Source: Methylotenera versatilis 79
Lineage (GTDB): Bacteria > Pseudomonadota > Gammaproteobacteria > Burkholderiales > Methylophilaceae
Assembly (NCBI RefSeq): GCF_000384375.1
Contig: NZ_ARVX01000001.1
Location: forward strand, 2,480,001-2,544,000
DNA length: 64,000 bases
Direction: 5' to 3'
The notes under the pieces are model-generated. The model was not told the DNA's origin, ran no database searches, and worked only from the letters and a program-made list of their open reading frames with translations. Positions 17,771 through 25,702 of this stretch are shown in pieces. Both the position numbers and the translations under genes were made by a program. Numbering within the stretch: the first letter of the stretch is position 1; the number at the start of each line of letters is the position of its first letter.

Positions 17771-18253
17771 TTATTTTTTAATATAAATTAAGTCACTGTA
17801 TTCAAGACCACTCATTGCGATGTGGTCTTTTTTTTCACTTAATTCCCAATCGTTTACATGAAAACTTGGGAAAAAAGCATCGCCTTCCACAGTGGTATTC
17901 ACTTTAGTTAAATACAACTTATTGGACAGCGTAATTCCTGCTGCATAAAGTTCTGCGCCGCCAATTAAGAATGGCTCATCATCATCTTTACACAACTCAA
18001 CTGCTGATTCCAAAGAGTTTGCAATCATTGCGCCTTCTACATGGTAGTTTTTGTTGCGCGTGACGATAACGGTTGTACGTCCGGGTAATAAACGCCCAAG
18101 AGACTCATAAGTTTTGCGGCCCATAATGATGTGATGCCCAGTAGTTAACGCTCTAAAACGCTTCAAATCTTCTGGTAAGTGCCAAGGCAAAGTATTGTTG
18201 ATACCAATAACATTGTTTTCTGCCATCGCGACGATAATGGATAAATTTTTCAT
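17771..18253 (-). CDS. folA: Dihydrofolate reductase
   Basis: Reduces dihydrofolate to tetrahydrofolate, regenerating the folate consumed by ThyA (gene at 23398-24219). 160 residues. The motifs IGINNTLPWHLPEDLKRF (with the active-site acidic residue), IIMGRKTYESLGRLLPGR and FLIGGAELY are all present. It is convergent with the decarboxylase gene. Confidence 0.97.
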   Translation of the reverse strand: MKNLSIIVAMAENNVIGINNTLPWHLPEDLKRFRALTTGHHIIMGRKTYESLGRLLPGRTTVIVTRNKNYHVEGAMIANSLESAVELCKDDDEPFLIGGAELYAAGITLSNKLYLTKVNTTVEGDAFFPSFHVNDWELSEKKDHIAMSGLEYSDLIYIKK

Positions 18254-18411
18254 GTGGGTAATTATACTGATTCAAGACCTATAATTCGAATCTACTCATG
18301 CGGAATCAATAAGATTTGATGTTAAAGACATGCTTGCTAAGTTAGTTTTTTCAAATTTAATGTTTTAAATTTAAATCTGCTCATTAACGTATAAAGATGA
18401 AGCTAAAAGCA

Positions 18412-18437
18412 AAACACCTCGCCGAAGCGAGGTGTTT
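18412..18437 (-). terminator. Terminator of xoxF
   Basis: A perfect 11-bp stem (AAACACCTCGC at 18412-18422, GCGAGGTGTTT at 18427-18437). On the minus strand the loop is the very stable C(TTCG)G tetraloop, followed by TTTTGC. It lies about 60 bases after the xoxF stop. Confidence 0.88.
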
Positions 18438-18494
18438 CTTTTGACATTAACTAACAGTTAACTGGTATTTTCTTACAACTAATCTTACGATTAA

Positions 18495-20366
18495 TTATAG
18501 TGAGAATACTGTTAAACCGCCGCCGCCAGGAGCAGCATTGTATTTAGTTAACTCTTTGTAACCACCAGCAGCACCAAGTGCGTCTGTGTCGTTAGTCATA
18601 CCAAGGTTCATCGCCACACCAGCCCAGCCACCAATACCTGAGAATACACCAACGTATTGTTTGCCTTTTTGGCCGTATGTGAATGAGTTACCAATCACGC
18701 CAGAACCCACTTGGAATTTCCAAAGTTCTTTACCCGATTGTGCATCAACCGCTTTTAACCAGCGATCTAATGTGCCGTAGAACACTAAATCAGTTGCAGT
18801 TGTTAAAGCACCACCCCAAGCAGAGAATTTCTCTTTGTTGTACCAAACTTTTTTGTTAGTCATTGGGTTGTAAGCAGCAAAACCGCCCATTACGCCATCA
18901 GGACCAGCAAACATAGTCAATGTAGCACCAACCCAAGGTTGACCTGCCACGTATTTAGACTCAACTGGCTCATATGTCATACAAACGTGGTTCAATGGTG
19001 AATACATCAAACCTGTTTTTGGTGAATACGCAGCTGGTTGTTGGTCTTTAGTACCTAATGCAGCTGGGCAGATGCCTTTTGCATTGTAGTCTTGGTGAGT
19101 AGAATACTTACCATCTTTAGCTGGAACGCCTGTTTTCAAGTCAACACCAGTTGCCCAGTTAACGAATGGATGTACTTTCTCAGCAGCAACTAAATTACCA
19201 TTGCTTGCTAACCAAGTGTAAGCGAAGCCGTTACGGTCATGATGCCAAGCATACGTTTTGCCAGCTTTATCAAATAGAATGACTTCGTTGATACCATCGT
19301 AATCCCACTCATCATGAGGAGTCATTTGCATGCCCCATTTTGCAACGCCTGTATCCAAATCGCGTGCAAATACTGACATAGACCATTTGTTATCGCCTGG
19401 ACGGACATCTGGGTTCCATACTGATGGGTTACCGATGCCGTAATACACTAGGTTAGTTTTACTATCATACGGCCACCAGCCCCATACAGAGCCACCACCA
19501 TGTTGCCAACCATCTTTAACCGCTTGTGGTTTTAACCAAGTACGTGTGCCTAATTCTTTTTCGCCGATTTTTAATTGGTCGTTAGGAATCGTTTTGAAAG
19601 AACCACCTTGTTTGTTACCGCCATTCACGTCTTGGTAAACAGACAATGCATTGTATTGTGGGTTAGCAGAGTTAAAATCCGCGCCGATCAACACTTCAGC
19701 ATCTGGGCCTGTTGAATAAGCTTTCCATGCCAATGAACCGTCTTTTAGGTTGTAAGCAGCGATAAAGCAGCGAACACCGAATTCAGCACCAGAACAACCT
19801 GTTAATACTTTGTCTTTGATTACGTGTGGTGCGTTAGTGTTTGTCGCGCCAACTTTTGGATCGTTAACCAATACTGACCAAGCTTTAGCACCTGTTTTAG
19901 CATCTAAAGCAACCAAGTTACCATCATTTTGTTGTAGATAGATTTTGCCGTCGCCGTAGCCTAAGCCACGTGAAACGTTATCGCAACATAGTACAGCTTG
20001 TACTGATGGATCTTGTTTTGGGAAATAAGACCAAACGATTTTTTGGTTATCGTTTAAATCTAATGCGTATACATTGTTCGGGAATGCAGTGTGTAGATAC
20101 ATCATGTTACCAACAACAACTGGTGAACCTTCGTGACCACGGTTTACACCGGTTGCGAATGTCCAAGCTGCTTTAAGGTTTTTTACGTTACCTTTGTTGA
20201 TTTGTGAAAGTGTGCTGTAGCCTTGGTTATTGTGTTGGCCACGTGGATGTGCCCAGTTATTTGCATCTTTCATTGCCGCTTCTTGATCTGCTGCTGCAAA
20301 TGCTACCATTGGCAATGCCAATGCTACGCTTGCTGCAACACCCATTACACGTTTTTTATTAAACAT
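18495..20366 (-). CDS. xoxF: Lanthanide-dependent PQQ methanol dehydrogenase XoxF
   Basis: Periplasmic quinoprotein that oxidises methanol. 623 residues with a Sec signal peptide (1-24, ending VAFA). The vicinal disulfide that stacks on PQQ is C127-C128. Metal ligands can be read by comparison with known structures: E195 (SGAEFGVR), N313 (YYGIGNPSVWNP), the catalytic D355 and, two residues on, D357 in PHDEWDYDGIN. D357 marks lanthanide-type XoxF; the calcium enzyme MxaF has Ala there. No xoxG cytochrome or xoxJ is adjacent, so the gene stands alone. TTTGGAGATAT precedes the ATG, the same ribosome-binding sequence as at the PepSY gene. A MocR regulator is divergent. Confidence 0.97.
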   Translation of the reverse strand: MFNKKRVMGVAASVALALPMVAFAAADQEAAMKDANNWAHPRGQHNNQGYSTLSQINKGNVKNLKAAWTFATGVNRGHEGSPVVVGNMMYLHTAFPNNVYALDLNDNQKIVWSYFPKQDPSVQAVLCCDNVSRGLGYGDGKIYLQQNDGNLVALDAKTGAKAWSVLVNDPKVGATNTNAPHVIKDKVLTGCSGAEFGVRCFIAAYNLKDGSLAWKAYSTGPDAEVLIGADFNSANPQYNALSVYQDVNGGNKQGGSFKTIPNDQLKIGEKELGTRTWLKPQAVKDGWQHGGGSVWGWWPYDSKTNLVYYGIGNPSVWNPDVRPGDNKWSMSVFARDLDTGVAKWGMQMTPHDEWDYDGINEVILFDKAGKTYAWHHDRNGFAYTWLASNGNLVAAEKVHPFVNWATGVDLKTGVPAKDGKYSTHQDYNAKGICPAALGTKDQQPAAYSPKTGLMYSPLNHVCMTYEPVESKYVAGQPWVGATLTMFAGPDGVMGGFAAYNPMTNKKVWYNKEKFSAWGGALTTATDLVFYGTLDRWLKAVDAQSGKELWKFQVGSGVIGNSFTYGQKGKQYVGVFSGIGGWAGVAMNLGMTNDTDALGAAGGYKELTKYNAAPGGGGLTVFSL

Positions 20367-20763
20367 CGTAATATCTCCAAAGATTAAATTAAATTGAGTT
20401 ACTCATCGCTTTTAAACTGCGAAGATCAACTGCATTTTAGCTTATATAAAACTGGTACTAGGATAACCAGATTCTTAAAACTCTCATTTAAACTACTCGA
20501 TCTTCCTTAAAACATGAGTTTTTAAATACAATTGTTTCAATTTGTTAAGCGAATGTTACTGTAACCAAAAAAAGACTAGTTTTAGCCCGCCTGATTGCTT
20601 ATTTTTAAGTGGTCCAGTAGAAATTTATTACCGTTAAAAATCATTTGTTGCTACCATTCATTTAGTGGACTTAGCCTAGATTTCCATTTAGACAAAAAAT
20701 TTAACTAATTTTTTTACTTAAGTTATTGATTCTACTTAAGTTAACTAAATGCTAAGGAATGTA
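20367..20763. promoter_or_regulatory. Divergent xoxF / mocR control region
   Basis: This gene-free stretch carries both promoters. On the xoxF side, an imperfect 19-bp dyad with arms CTGGT and ACCAG (20452-20470) overlaps where the -35 would lie for a minus-strand -10 box TAAAAT (20434-20439). On the mocR side there are two AGTGG-WC boxes: AAGTGGTCCA at 20607-20616 and TTTAGTGGACTTA at 20661-20673. They resemble the AAAGTGGWCTA-type operator I recall for PdxR/MocR proteins. Two direct repeats ACTTAAGTTA (20716-20725, 20734-20743) lie 18 bases apart just before the mocR start. Site assignments are inference. Confidence 0.5.
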
Positions 20764-22272
20764 ATGTTAAGACCATGGGATTTCAGTATGGAAGTTGAGC
20801 GTGATTCGCACACGCCTATTCACGTTCAAATTGCTGAAAAAATAATGGATGAAATCCAGCGCGGACGTTTTTTACCAGGCAGCGCATTACCTGGCACACG
20901 CGAGTTATCCAACAAGCTTAATATTAATCGTAAAACTGCGGTACAAGCCTATGATGAGCTAATCTCTAAAGGCTGGTTAACTACAGAGAGCAAACGCGGT
21001 ACATTTGTCTCTTCCCAAGTATTAACTGTCAATCAAAGCATCAAAGCGACAAAAGCTTCATCCATTCAAATATCAGCTAAAAAACATCGTGTACCCAATA
21101 CATTGATGGCGGCAACCAATGCCGCAGACCAAGCACAAAAAAAACAAGCCTTAGATATTATTCACTTTAGCGATGATTTGCCCGATGCGCGCTTGATTCC
21201 TTATCAGCCATTTGCGCGTGCAATGCGACACGCACTTACTTCGTTAACGCGTAATAATAAGCTCAATTATGCCGATGCAAGAGGTAGCACAATCTTGCGC
21301 GAAGCAATCCATCACATGCTGAATATGGAAAGAGAGTTGACTGCAGATATCGATAATATTTGCATTGTGCGTGGCGGCCAAATGGGCTTGTTTTTAGCCG
21401 CCAGATTACTCATAGAAGCCAACGACTGCATTGTGGTAGAGCAATTGAGTGATCCGATTGCGCGTGAAACTTTTAAAAATTGTGGGGCAACATTATTAGC
21501 CGTGAACCACAATAAAAATGGGATTGATTTGGGTGCGTTAGAAAAACTCTGCATTAACCACCCTGTACGCGCTATTTACATTACGCCGCACCATCAAATG
21601 CCAACAGGCTTGGTGATGCCAATGGAAAATAGAAAAGCGCTGCTGATGCTTGCAGAACGCTATAACTTTGTGATTATTGAAGATGATAGCGGCCATGAAT
21701 TTAATTATGACGAAAAACCATTATTGCCACTTGCTAGCTTAGATAGAAATGGCCGCGTGATTTATATCGGATCGCTTTCAAAAGTATTAGCACCTGGTTT
21801 TAGAGTCGGCTATTTGGTTGCATCAGAAGCGGTTATTCAATATTGTGCCAGCGACATCACGATGATTGATCGGCAAGGAAATGCTCCCATAGAAATTGCG
21901 GTGGCAGAGCTTTTACATACGGGAGAAATCAAGAGACACGTGACTAAATCCTTAAAAACGTATCAAGAACGCAAAATTCATATCTGCAATTTGATTAACC
22001 TTGAATTAGCCGAATTCTGCACGATTGCGCCGACGAATTCTGGCCTCGGATTATGGTTAGATTTAGCTAGTTATATTGATACTAATGTACTACTTGAAGA
22101 TGCAAAGAAGCAAAAATTGAAACTGCAAGACCCTAATAGCTATTCAGAATTTCATCAAGTGTCGGGTTTAAGACTGGGTTTTGCTCATTTAAATTGTGAG
22201 GAAATTACTATTGGCATTACACGTTTAAAAAATGCACTTTCCTATCAATCGCGCGTTGCATTAAGAGCTTAA
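20764..22272 (+). CDS. MocR/PdxR-type regulator (GntR winged helix fused to aminotransferase domain)
   Basis: About 502 residues from the ATG at 20764. An N-terminal GntR winged helix (VQIAEKIMDEIQRGRFLPGSALPG, then TRELSNKLNINRKTAVQAYDEL) is joined to a type I aminotransferase fold. The PLP-binding lysine is kept in GSLSKVLAPGFRVGYLV (K340 in this numbering), so the protein probably binds PLP or a PLP-amino acid adduct as effector. I prefer 20764 to the ATG at 20749 because AAGGA lies at 20754-20758. No vitamin B6 synthesis gene is nearby. It is divergent from xoxF, which makes xoxF or the gene itself the likely targets; neither is proven. Confidence 0.9.
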   Translation: MLRPWDFSMEVERDSHTPIHVQIAEKIMDEIQRGRFLPGSALPGTRELSNKLNINRKTAVQAYDELISKGWLTTESKRGTFVSSQVLTVNQSIKATKASSIQISAKKHRVPNTLMAATNAADQAQKKQALDIIHFSDDLPDARLIPYQPFARAMRHALTSLTRNNKLNYADARGSTILREAIHHMLNMERELTADIDNICIVRGGQMGLFLAARLLIEANDCIVVEQLSDPIARETFKNCGATLLAVNHNKNGIDLGALEKLCINHPVRAIYITPHHQMPTGLVMPMENRKALLMLAERYNFVIIEDDSGHEFNYDEKPLLPLASLDRNGRVIYIGSLSKVLAPGFRVGYLVASEAVIQYCASDITMIDRQGNAPIEIAVAELLHTGEIKRHVTKSLKTYQERKIHICNLINLELAEFCTIAPTNSGLGLWLDLASYIDTNVLLEDAKKQKLKLQDPNSYSEFHQVSGLRLGFAHLNCEEITIGITRLKNALSYQSRVALRA

Positions 22273-22298
22273 AGTAATAAAAGTCGGCGCGCAGCTGG

Positions 22299-22314
22299 TG
22301 GTTGTATTCAACCG
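22299..22314. promoter_or_regulatory. TGGTT-N6-AACC dyad, site A
   Basis: The sequence TGGTTGTATTCAACCG matches sites at 23350 and 53621 in arms and spacing. It is about 125 bases before the predicted start of the noncoding transcript, a typical distance for an enhancer-type activator site. Confidence 0.4.
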
Positions 22315-22406
22315 ACATTGGTTGTTATGGTGCTAAATATGAACCAACTTACAATTCTGAAAATAAATACAATCGTTTAATCAATGAGTTGCGATTAATT
22401 TTATAT

Positions 22407-22422
22407 TGGTACGATACTTGCG
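22407..22422 (+). promoter_or_regulatory. Sigma-54-like promoter
   Basis: TGGTACG-ATAC-TTGCG matches the sigma-54 consensus TGGCACG-N4-TTGCW at 10 of 12 positions, with the key GG and GC dinucleotides exactly 12 bases apart. Start of transcription would be near 22433. Such matches also arise by chance, so the support comes from the upstream dyad and the downstream terminator. Confidence 0.45.
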
Positions 22423-22432
22423 GCTATTAACA

Positions 22433-22590
22433 CATGGGAGAGCTATCACTAGGACCTTTGTTGTTACATGATTTTAAGGGTTATGTGTACAGTAAAGGGG
22501 TAGACTCCCTACAAATTTTTGGTTTGATTTATTACAGTTAGCTATTCCGCGACATATAGAAAAAGGCGCAATTGCGCCTTTTTCTATTAA
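22433..22590 (+). ncRNA. Candidate noncoding RNA downstream of mocR
   Basis: Predicted as a transcript of about 155 bases running from the sigma-54-like promoter to the terminator at 22561-22584. It contains short complementary runs such as GTAG/CTAC around 22500-22513. It does not resemble 6S RNA, tmRNA or any riboswitch I know. Evidence is positional only; no alignment or folding was run. Confidence 0.35.
22561..22584. terminator. Symmetric terminator between candidate RNA and PepSY gene
   Basis: A perfect 24-base palindrome with arms AAAAAGGCGC and GCGCCTTTTT around AATT. It works in both directions: it can end the plus-strand candidate RNA and the minus-strand PepSY message, whose stop is 74 bases away. 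Confidence 0.85.
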
Positions 22591-22657
22591 ACAGCTGTAA
22601 TCAAATTGTTAAATAACTAGCAAACCAAGCTACTTAACAACAAATTATGCCAAAGAA

Positions 22658-23185
22658 TTAATCTTCTTGACCAATTTGATACACTTCATAGCTATGCTCA
22701 ACGATTTTGCCTGTTGTTGCATCGACTTCAACTTTAATCTCTTCGCCGTCTGCTTCTAAAATATCAAATTCGTAAGAAGCTTTTCCGTCTGGCTCAAGCT
22801 CGTATTCTGTTTCTACAATTTTACCTGGGTAAGCTTTAAGCGCTGTTGCTTGTGCATCTGCTTCAGTTACTTTAGCTAATGCTTTAAATCTTGCATCATC
22901 GGCTTTTACTTCTTCCTCAACTTCAATAATTTTGCCTGTTTGAGCATTACACTCAATATCCCATGCTGTACCATCGGCAGATTCAATATCGAACTCATAA
23001 ACTGGAGATTTATTCTCTGATTTAAATTCCAATTTAACGATTTTACCTTCGTGTACAGATAATGCTGCTTTAACGCACTTACCTAAACTATCCGCTTTAT
23101 GAGGCTTAATTGTTTCATGATCAGCTGATGCTGTATTTGAAAAAATTGCGGCTACTGCGGCTACAACTAACATTGAACGTATCAT
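22658..23185 (-). CDS. Periplasmic two-PepSY protein, LanPepSY-like (putative lanthanide binding)
   Basis: 175 residues: a Sec signal peptide (1-21, ending ASA), then two PepSY domains at about 33-88 and 106-166, with repeated [10 protein letters not shown] and [11 protein letters not shown] endings. The mature part is strongly acidic (many Glu and Asp in pairs, for example [10 protein letters not shown] and LEADGEE). Two cysteines, C37 and C79, could form a disulfide. Size, domain pair, acidity and export match LanPepSY, a lanthanide-binding protein known from the methylotroph Methylobacillus flagellatus. The location 2.3 kb from xoxF, with an identical TTTGGAGATAT ribosome-binding region, supports a lanthanide role. 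PepSY proteins elsewhere can inhibit proteases, so metal binding remains an inference here. Confidence 0.75.
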
Positions 23186-23283
23186 TTTATATCTCCAAAA
23201 AATTAACTAACGAAATCATTTTTGCGCATTATTGTCTTGGCATTCATTTAAAAATCCAGTGCCAAATACACGTTTACCCGCAC

Positions 23284-23377
23284 AGTATATGTAAAGAGCA
23301 TATAAAAGTTCAATCAACCTTTGTATGTTTTACACTTGATTTACATTTTTGGTTATACGCAACCAGTCAGTTGGTTA
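23284..23377 (-). promoter_or_regulatory. Promoter and dyad upstream of the PepSY gene (site B)
   Basis: On the minus strand a sigma-70 promoter is readable as TTGAAC (23308-23313) and TATACT (23284-23289), 18 bases apart. Upstream of it, centred near -80, is TTGGTTATACGCAACCA (23349-23365), with a third half-site TTGGTTA at 23371-23377, 22 bases (two helical turns) from the first. The dyad has the same arms and spacing as sites at 22299 and 53621. Confidence 0.45.
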
Positions 23378-23397
23378 CTTGTAGCCAAAAACTGTTT

Positions 23398-24219
23398 TTA
23401 AACAGCAACTAAGCCTTTAATTGCGGGATGCGGATCGTAGTTTTCTAAAGTGAAATCTTCAAATTTAAAGGAGAAAATGTCGTTAACATTTGGGTTGATA
23501 CGCATCTGAGGTAATGCGCGAATTTCGCGGGAAAGTTGCTCGTTGATTTGTTCTAAATGATTATTATAAATATGCGCATCGCCCAAAGTATGCACAAAAT
23601 CACCTAATCTTAAATCGCATACTTGCGCGACCATCATCGTTAATAGCGCGTAAGAGGCAATATTAAACGGCACTCCCAAGAAAATATCAGCGCTACGCTG
23701 ATAGAGTTGGCAGCTCAATTTTGATCGTTGATCCGCATCATCGGGCGATGCAGGCGCCACGTAAAACTGAAAAAACGCATGGCACGGTGGCAATTTCATC
23801 TGGTCAACATCGGCCACATTCCAAGCAGAAACAATCAAACGACGTGAATCAGGATTGGTTTTAATTGCATTAATCACTTGTGTGATTTGATCGATATGCG
23901 TGCCATCTGGCTTAGGCCAATTACGCCATTGATAGCCATAAACTGGTCCTAAGTTGCCCTTTTCATCCGCCCACTCATCCCAAATACGCACACCATTTTC
24001 TTTAAGATAGGCAATATTAGTGCTGCCTTGCAAAAACCAAAGCAGTTCATGCACGATTGATTTTAAATGTACTTTTTTGGTGGTGAGTAATGGAAAACCT
24101 TCTGCCAAATCAAAACGCATTTGGTAGCCAAAAACAGAAATGGTGCCTGTGCCTGTGCGGTCATGCTTTTGCACACCTTGCGCTAATACATGTTTGACTA
24201 ATTCGGTATATTGTTTCAT
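23398..24219 (-). CDS. thyA: Thymidylate synthase
   Basis: Makes dTMP from dUMP using methylene-tetrahydrofolate. 273 residues, close to E. coli ThyA. The catalytic Cys is in [35 protein letters not shown], in two adjacent pieces, is the dUMP-binding region; GDAHIYNNH is near the end. It lies between thrC (upstream, 61 bases) and the PepSY gene, on the same strand as both. Confidence 0.98.
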
Positions 24220-24280
24220 AGGAATACCTTATATAAATTCTTTGGCTTTCTTAAAATACAAATTTAACTGTTTTATTGCA

Positions 24281-25702
24281 TTAAGTATTTTGGGCAATAA
24301 AATCTTTAATTGAGGCAACATCGGCATCCATCACAGTGAATTTTTGCGGCAATTGCTCAATACCTTTTAAGCTATCTGGTCGCGACGGCACTTCGCCTAA
24401 TGCTTCAACTAGTGCGTCTTCAAATTTAGCGGCTAACGCGGTTTCCAACACCACCATTGGAATATTATTTTGTCTATACTCCAATGCAACTTTCAAGCCA
24501 TCAGCAGTATGTGTATCAATGACCACATCATACTTCTCTTTGGTTTGGCGAATAGTTTGCATGCGGTTTGCATGGCTGCTACTACCAGACACGAATCCAT
24601 AATCGGCTAATTTTGGCAGCAAATGCTTGATATCAAATGCTCCGCCTTTGTCTACACTTGCCCACAGATCACGCACTTTGCTGGCATCTTTGCCCACCAA
24701 ATCAAATACAAAGCGCTCAAAGTTAGAAGCCTTGCTGATATCCATCGATGGACTAGATGTTTGATAAGTATTTGCTGAACCACGTGGGCGATAAATGCCC
24801 GTTTTAAAAAACTCATCCAGCACATCGTTTTCATTTGTAGCGACTACTAGCTTATCAATCGGCAAACCCATCATGCGCGCAATATGGCCGGCGCATACAT
24901 TACCAAAATTGCCACTCGGCACTGCAAAGCTTACTTTTTGGCTGTTACTTTGTGTCACCGCAAAATAGCCTTTAAAGTAATACACGACTTGCGCGACGAT
25001 TCTGCCCCAATTGATAGAGTTAACTGCGCCAATTTTATATTTTTGTTTAAATGCCGCATCATTTGAAACGGCTTTAACGATATCTTGGCAATCATCAAAC
25101 ACGCCATCCACAGCGATATTAAAGATGTTTTCATCTTGCAAGCTGAACATCTGTGCCGTTTGAAAACGACTCATCTTTTTGTGTGGCGATAACATAAATA
25201 CACGCACGCCTTTTTTGCCGCGCATCGCGTATTCAGCCGCAGAACCCGTATCGCCAGAAGTTGCACCTAAAATATTTGTTGTTTCACCTTTAACAGCCAA
25301 TACATATTCAAATAAATTGCCTAATAACTGCATCGCCATATCTTTAAAAGCCAATGTTGGTCCATTGGAAAGGCTTAATAAATACAAGTTATCTTCGAGC
25401 TTAATAGTTGGCGTAATATCTGCCGCGTTTTGACCGATACGCGTAAAACCATACACCTCCGCGCGATAAGTTTTATCGATAATCGCTTTTAAATCAGTTG
25501 CAGGAATGTCATCAACTAAACGACTTAAAATCGCAAAAGCTAAATCCGCATAATTCATGCCGCGCATGGCAGTTAAATCTGCATCGCTAAATTGCGGATA
25601 TGTTTCTGGCAAATATAAACCGCCATCTGGCGCCAAGCCGCCTAACAAAATTTCGCTAAAACTTAAAGCAGGCGATTGCCCGCGTGTAGAAATGTATTTC
25701 AT
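24281..25702 (-). CDS. thrC: Threonine synthase
   Basis: PLP enzyme that converts O-phosphohomoserine to threonine. 473 residues, the long form usual in betaproteobacteria. The N-terminal motif MKYISTRGQSP and the PLP lysine segment SNGPTLAFKDMAMQ are diagnostic; LGATSGDTGSAAEYA binds phosphate. It follows hom by 45 bases and belongs to the alaA-GNAT-hom-thrC transcript. No thrB (homoserine kinase) is in this window. Confidence 0.97.
   Translation of the reverse strand: MKYISTRGQSPALSFSEILLGGLAPDGGLYLPETYPQFSDADLTAMRGMNYADLAFAILSRLVDDIPATDLKAIIDKTYRAEVYGFTRIGQNAADITPTIKLEDNLYLLSLSNGPTLAFKDMAMQLLGNLFEYVLAVKGETTNILGATSGDTGSAAEYAMRGKKGVRVFMLSPHKKMSRFQTAQMFSLQDENIFNIAVDGVFDDCQDIVKAVSNDAAFKQKYKIGAVNSINWGRIVAQVVYYFKGYFAVTQSNSQKVSFAVPSGNFGNVCAGHIARMMGLPIDKLVVATNENDVLDEFFKTGIYRPRGSANTYQTSSPSMDISKASNFERFVFDLVGKDASKVRDLWASVDKGGAFDIKHLLPKLADYGFVSGSSSHANRMQTIRQTKEKYDVVIDTHTADGLKVALEYRQNNIPMVVLETALAAKFEDALVEALGEVPSRPDSLKGIEQLPQKFTVMDADVASIKDFIAQNT

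Follow-up and report, generated by a model that had tools for sequence, protein, structure and literature searches.

A LanPepSY-family gene in a recurrent cluster with xoxF and a MocR-type regulator gene in Methylotenera versatilis 79

Introduction

A gene for a small, acidic, probably exported protein lies close to xoxF, the gene of a PQQ-dependent methanol dehydrogenase, in Methylotenera versatilis 79. Does its product handle lanthanides for the enzyme encoded nearby, and are the two genes bound together by position and control? LanPepSY (lanpepsy, LanP) of Methylobacillus flagellatus, with which an earlier note on this DNA had compared the protein, was reportedly described by Hemmann et al. 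in 2023. The analysis below concerns a window of 64,000 nucleotides (the whole stretch of DNA analysed), its genome of 2.6 Mb (G000) and related genomes.

Results

The lanP gene and its product

22658..23185, minus strand: lanP, LanPepSY-family gene, 175 aa (ORF from ATG; Pfam; PDB 9vy3 match; AlphaFold2 model)
23123..23185, minus strand: signal-peptide coding part, residues 1-21 (by eye; pLDDT 54-56 for residues 1-20)

The earlier note had described a signal peptide, two PepSY domains and a very acidic mature chain, and all three were found again. The signal peptide was called by inspection of the N-terminus, without SignalP; a Pfam scan matched PF03413 (PepSY) in two stretches (E 1.9e-27; 95.8 bits against a cut-off of 24); and the mature protein (from residue 22; 154 aa, 17.0 kDa) carries 37 D/E against 18 K/R, with a pI of 4.5. 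The AlphaFold2 model, built on a 42-row alignment (mean pLDDT 90.9), consists of a helix-plus-four-strand unit that occurs twice. At 20 positions, no fewer than 97% of the 94 distinct homologs have an acidic residue. Residues C37 and C79 occur together in 86 of these homologs and are jointly missing from 8, neither ever being found alone, a pattern that suggests a disulfide, by which the N-terminal PepSY domain is probably held. No EF-hand family appeared among the Pfam matches up to E 0.1, and the same scan showed no signalling domain in LanP, which leaves the label of "sensor" given to it by the earlier note without support.

Membership of the LanPepSY family

Searching the PDB by sequence returned a sole match up to E 1, entry 9vy3 (E 2e-51, query residues 31-174), a molecule named "Propeptide, PepSY amd peptidase M4" whose sequence is common to seven further entries (9vy3 to 9vya). 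The 145 aligned residues of 9vy3 are 100% identical to the lanP product of genome G103 (2,971,517 bp), which we take to be Methylobacillus flagellatus KT and in which lanP is present twice, 143 kb apart. A reciprocal search against LanPepSY, the check that the earlier note had proposed, showed that the window and G103 proteins are reciprocal best matches (59% identity from window to G103, 63% from G103 to window), the G103 query retrieving the window gene as the single match in its genome. Among the 34 acidic residues of the aligned G103 protein, counted whether or not they are metal ligands, 27 are acidic in the window protein too; identity amounts to 26/34 at acidic residues and 63/111 at the others (Fisher p 0.045), a weak signal.

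In a tree of 44 rows, the window protein falls within a starred, well-supported clade of 18 rows, and the founding protein of M. flagellatus lies outside that clade, in the same large group, a placement that counts against the main reading. Given this sister-clade position, we place the window gene in the LanPepSY family, as a counterpart by position, and do not claim strict orthology. With that caveat the likeness to LanPepSY holds: membership of the family is well supported by the sequence comparisons, which make lanP a further member of a family already known. Both types, a lanP from the clade of the window and another from elsewhere in the tree (L096 and L142), are present in Methylotenera mobilis 13, suggesting transfer or an old duplication.

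The window protein has matches at E 1e-5 or better in 28 of 61 genomes, its own counted, two of which (G008 and G027) hold short matches only, that of G027 with stops; the G103 protein has matches at E 1e-10 or better, some of them short, in 109 of 187 family genomes. Possible remnants of lanP, short and interrupted by in-frame stops, were seen in the small-genome relatives G027, G133 and G140 (genus g14). A named scan gave 282 encoding stretches; the best 80 of the 282, the loci analysed here, belong mostly to Methylophilaceae. Among methane oxidisers, the section of PMC12482762 concerned with LanPepSY has it as mainly gammaproteobacterial. A fold search of the PDB gave a single match below E 0.001, which was 4exr (E 4e-05, TM 0.31) and not 9vy3; entries 9vy3 to 9vya were absent from the 50 fold matches listed (library entries up to April 2026).

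Recurrence of the cluster with xoxF and a MocR-type gene

17771..18253, minus strand: folA, far end of the slot (ORF and family searches)
18495..20366, minus strand: xoxF-type PQQ methanol dehydrogenase gene, the copy without xoxJ/xoxG-like neighbours (ORF, Pfam, NCBIfam)
20749..22272, plus strand: MocR-type regulator gene (mocR), divergent from xoxF and convergent with lanP (ORF, Pfam, NCBIfam)
23398..24219, minus strand: thyA, recurrent upstream neighbour of lanP (ORF and family searches)
24281..25702, minus strand: thrC, adjoining thyA upstream (ORF and family searches)

From the start codon of xoxF (20366) to the stop of lanP (22658) there are 2.29 kb, in agreement with the 2.3 kb of the earlier note, and the mocR-type gene is contained in this gap. 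A small ORF of 42 aa lies at 22302-22430, in the lanP-mocR intergenic region. Rfam gave no match at gathering score over 18000-24500, and promoter and terminator matches in 18200-23500 were no more numerous than in shuffles. The second xoxF copy of this genome is 94% identical; after it come a gene of the solute-binding type and one for a cytochrome c, an order in keeping with the xoxFJG cluster that the relevant part of PMC4109929 describes for the family.

In 21 of the 80 named loci (the best 80 of 282), xoxF lies downstream of lanP on the same strand, 1.8-2.3 kb off. A MocR-type gene on the opposite strand directly follows lanP at all 21 and at L085, whose contig breaks off before any xoxF could be seen, which brings the regulator-linked loci to 22. 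No xoxF was seen at the other 59, 11 of which have less than 2.6 kb downstream, too short to tell; the 48 of 80 that lack xoxF given enough sequence count against the main reading, and the share with xoxF in the whole LanPepSY family may be lower still, because the 80 loci are the closest of the 282 matches. Two loci, L089 and L090, have near-identical sequences.

An 11-mer common to xoxF and lanP

20371..20381, minus strand: TTTGGAGATAT before xoxF, probable strong Shine-Dalgarno (genome pattern search and comparison in relatives)
23189..23199, minus strand: TTTGGAGATAT before lanP, probable strong Shine-Dalgarno (genome pattern search and comparison in relatives)

The earlier note had also pointed to a sequence common to both genes ahead of their start codons. 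It is indeed there: TTTGGAGATAT has two exact copies in the genome, both just 5' of the xoxF and lanP start codons (reversed-pattern control, 0). As about 2.5 copies per genome are expected by chance from the base composition of the window, the copy number is unsurprising and the positions are what is notable. Within 25 nt of the start, GGAGATA precedes 2 and GGAG precedes 3 of 39 window genes, hand-picked from ORF lists with mechanical rather than curated starts. In the 22 linked pairs (the window and 21 named), exact TTTGGAGATAT stands before 7 xoxF genes and 2 lanP genes (window and M. versatilis 7), GGAGATA before 21 and 3, respectively, and GGAG before both genes in 22/22. Because the GGAG core is kept at the lanP of relatives and its flanks rarely are, TTTGGAGATAT was rejected as main evidence for a regulatory element, and probably reads best as a strong ribosome-binding site. 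The genetic link that the earlier note had built on this sequence is thus weak as argued, given the Shine-Dalgarno overlap; what stands in favour of a link is the recurrent synteny with a MocR-type regulator and the CTAG boxes in the promoters of relatives.

CTAG boxes upstream of xoxF and lanP

20452..20462, minus strand: proximal CTAG box CCTAGTACCAG, upstream of xoxF (sole genome match to CCTAGTRCCAG; reversed control 3)
20676..20679, no strand assigned: distal CTAG box close to the start of mocR, read as TCTAGG on the xoxF strand (upstream alignment)

Upstream regions of xoxF were compared after removal of near-identical ones, which left 52 of 75 (25 with a divergent mocR, 11 without, and 16 second copies). 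CCTAGT (-45 to -125) and CTAGG (-240 to -335) were both present in 21/25 regions with a divergent mocR and 0/11 without (Fisher p 2e-6, a guide only, since the positional windows were chosen after the alignments had been viewed). The exceptions among mocR-linked genes are L036 (= L076) and L157, with the distal box only, and L044 (= L101) and L156, with neither. The 16 second copies (751-bp stretches, mocR being judged within 700 nt upstream for most) have both boxes in 3 cases, the proximal box only in 7 and none in 6; longer stretches showed that mocR adjoins xoxF in the three with both. All seven copies with only the proximal box belong to genus g20, which includes named Methylophilus, a hint of action in trans; contrary to such action, the second xoxF copies L186 and L200, also of g20 genomes, lack the proximal box.

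Before lanP, CCTAGC occurs at about -40 to -70 in 15/22 regulator-linked loci versus 1/58 others (p 4e-10, phylogeny ignored), and in 12/19 versus 1/54 once near-identical upstreams are removed (p 3e-8, phylogeny likewise ignored). The one unlinked case is L103, whose contig stops 0.2 kb past lanP; with the final C dropped, CCTAG precedes 16/22 linked and 8/58 other lanP genes. The window lanP has no CTAG box, and its nearest linked relatives, L076 and L077, lack the CCTAGC box too, so this strain gives no ground for claiming co-control through the box.

As a genome-wide regulon marker, CCTAGTRCCAG was tried and rejected: it occurs in 28/61 genomes, in many of which the reversed control is equally common or commoner. 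Of three G033 matches not near xoxF, two fall within genes that look by eye like hisI and a type II secretion gene, and the third lies 3' of two genes; further matches are found in L165 and L166 (sequence only).

The MocR-type regulator

The window regulator combines a GntR winged helix (PF00392) with an aminotransferase domain (PF00155) that retains the PLP lysine (K345), and scores 318 bits against the NCBIfam PdxR model, 2 under its cut-off of 320. Among 23 aligned copies, 10 keep this lysine and 13 have lost it (10 to G; A, R and N once each). The lysine-less set includes 11 shorter copies without internal stop, from 10 named Methylophilus genomes (G) and L105 (A); their dN/dS values of 0.06 to 0.17 (median 0.10; 21/55 pairs with usable dS) are rough because dS is high, and they look like working genes under purifying selection. 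At L078 (10833-11963) and ten similar loci, the shortened lysine-less MocR-like gene lies between lanP and xoxF. The proximal xoxF box is present at all 9 lysine-bearing copies of this alignment for which the xoxF upstream region is visible.

Our proposal for this protein is a tentative one, on which we would put somewhat less than even odds: the MocR-family protein divergent from xoxF may, in Methylotenera and Methylophilus, be what regulates lanthanide-dependent methanol oxidation, acting through CTAG boxes at xoxF, at mocR and, in many species, at lanP. PLP would be dispensable for it, because Methylophilus-type copies have lost the lysine yet appear to be under strong purifying selection, and a gene selected in that state suggests an aminotransferase fold repurposed to sense something else.

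It is possible, in our estimate at about one chance in three, that the CTAG boxes are instead core-promoter or start-site features and not MocR operators. In favour of this, they stand about 45-67 nt before the start codon at lanP and 70-115 nt at linked xoxF, and the regulator homologs of G025 (50%) and G031 (31%) adjoin xoxF genes that have no paired boxes. Against a general promoter feature, the paired pattern was met in just 10 of 1141 other upstream regions, all of which proved by their N-termini to belong to xoxF (3) or mocR (7) genes missed by the filter, and the full-length lysine-less regulators L076 and L101 adjoin xoxF genes without a proximal box.

The slot between thrC-thyA and folA

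In G103, thrC and thyA are followed by a GGDEF/EAL gene, lanP, further genes (a histidine kinase and a response regulator among them) and finally folA. The succession thrC-thyA, lanP, folA is therefore a slot common to G103 and the window. At L095, L104, L126, L129, L136 and other loci of several genera, a recurrent gene set was seen close to lanP, towards folA, in the place that xoxF and mocR take in the window; in G103 this set is represented by the response regulator and histidine kinase.

These arrangements bear on a second alternative, namely that the clustering is passive synteny: the xoxF-mocR pair would have landed in an old thyA-folA slot, with function and control separate from those of lanP. 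In its favour, folA adjoins lanP with no xoxF between them at L038/L084 (one genome, G007) and L083, other genes fill the slot in G103, and divergent mocR-xoxF pairs exist with no lanP beside them in the stretches fetched (G025, G031, G114, G117, G126, G171 and G198); the missing CTAG box at the window lanP points the same way. We consider this rather unlikely, as the xoxF-mocR-lanP cluster is kept across named Methylotenera and Methylophilus genomes and the CCTAGC box, phylogeny ignored, accompanies most linked lanP genes and almost no others.

Discussion

A proposed role for LanP

Taken together, we consider LanP a periplasmic lanthanide binder of the LanPepSY family, most likely buffering or delivering lanthanides for the nearby XoxF, with a probability of roughly 0.78. 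Clustered carboxylates in both PepSY domains would bind the lanthanide ions, and the protein would then supply, or buffer the supply of, the enzyme encoded 2.3 kb away. For the founding protein, the passages of PMC11845868 and PMC11899968 that treat it report lanthanide binding at up to four sites. Against the main reading counts that, according to the single-cell ICP-MS part of PMC11899968, La/Tb binding was not raised in E. coli expressing lanpepsy.

The weakest alternative, that LanP is a generic acidic periplasmic PepSY protein unrelated to lanthanides, for other cations such as Ca2+ or for the tuning of a sensor kinase or protease, draws on the breadth of the domain, on other PepSY proteins in the same genome (the single-domain ones having, by eye, part of the acidic pattern of LanP, which counts against the main reading) and on the kinase and response regulator in the G103 slot, and we judge it improbable because the single sequence-matched solved relative is the G103 LanP itself over 145 residues, lanP is clustered with xoxF and a regulator gene at 21 of the best 80 of 282 loci, and the scanned neighbours (thymidylate synthase, threonine synthase, dihydrofolate reductase, MocR-type regulator and XoxF) include no peptidases. 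One such pair, two adjoining single-PepSY ORFs, lies directly 5' of a response regulator and a sensor kinase at about 1224416-1227186 of G000:C1 (L066 6417-9187).

By bringing together a putative lanthanide binder, a lanthanide-dependent enzyme and a regulator, the recurrent cluster offers a small testable gene set, whose arrangement points to a common control system. A MocR protein functioning without PLP would, if true, be unusual.

Comparison with known systems

Limited literature searches gave no description of the xoxF-mocR-lanP cluster (in the portions of PMC12482762, PMC11996626, PMC11899968 and PMC11845868 covered, among others), and named no MocR- or GntR-type regulator of xoxF (parts of PMC4109929 and PMC3728764 were checked for GntR). 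The window regulator resembles MocR/PdxR-type regulators in joining a GntR winged helix to an aminotransferase domain, and differs from them in its divergent position relative to xoxF and in the lack of the PLP lysine in 13/23 aligned copies. Lanmodulin, presented in the pertinent part of PMC11845868 as a small acidic periplasmic lanthanide binder of methylotrophs, is matched by LanP in size, acidity, periplasmic location and predicted ligand; lanmodulin is an EF-hand protein, whereas LanP has no EF-hand family among its Pfam matches. The closest counterpart is LanPepSY of M. flagellatus. The window protein stands in a sister clade to it, and the stretch from lanP to folA holds xoxF and mocR in the window but a different set, with the kinase and response regulator, in G103. 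The two proteins nevertheless have in common two PepSY domains, a size of about 19 kDa, a periplasmic signal, an acidic composition, 59-63% identity and a place in the slot from thrC-thyA to folA.
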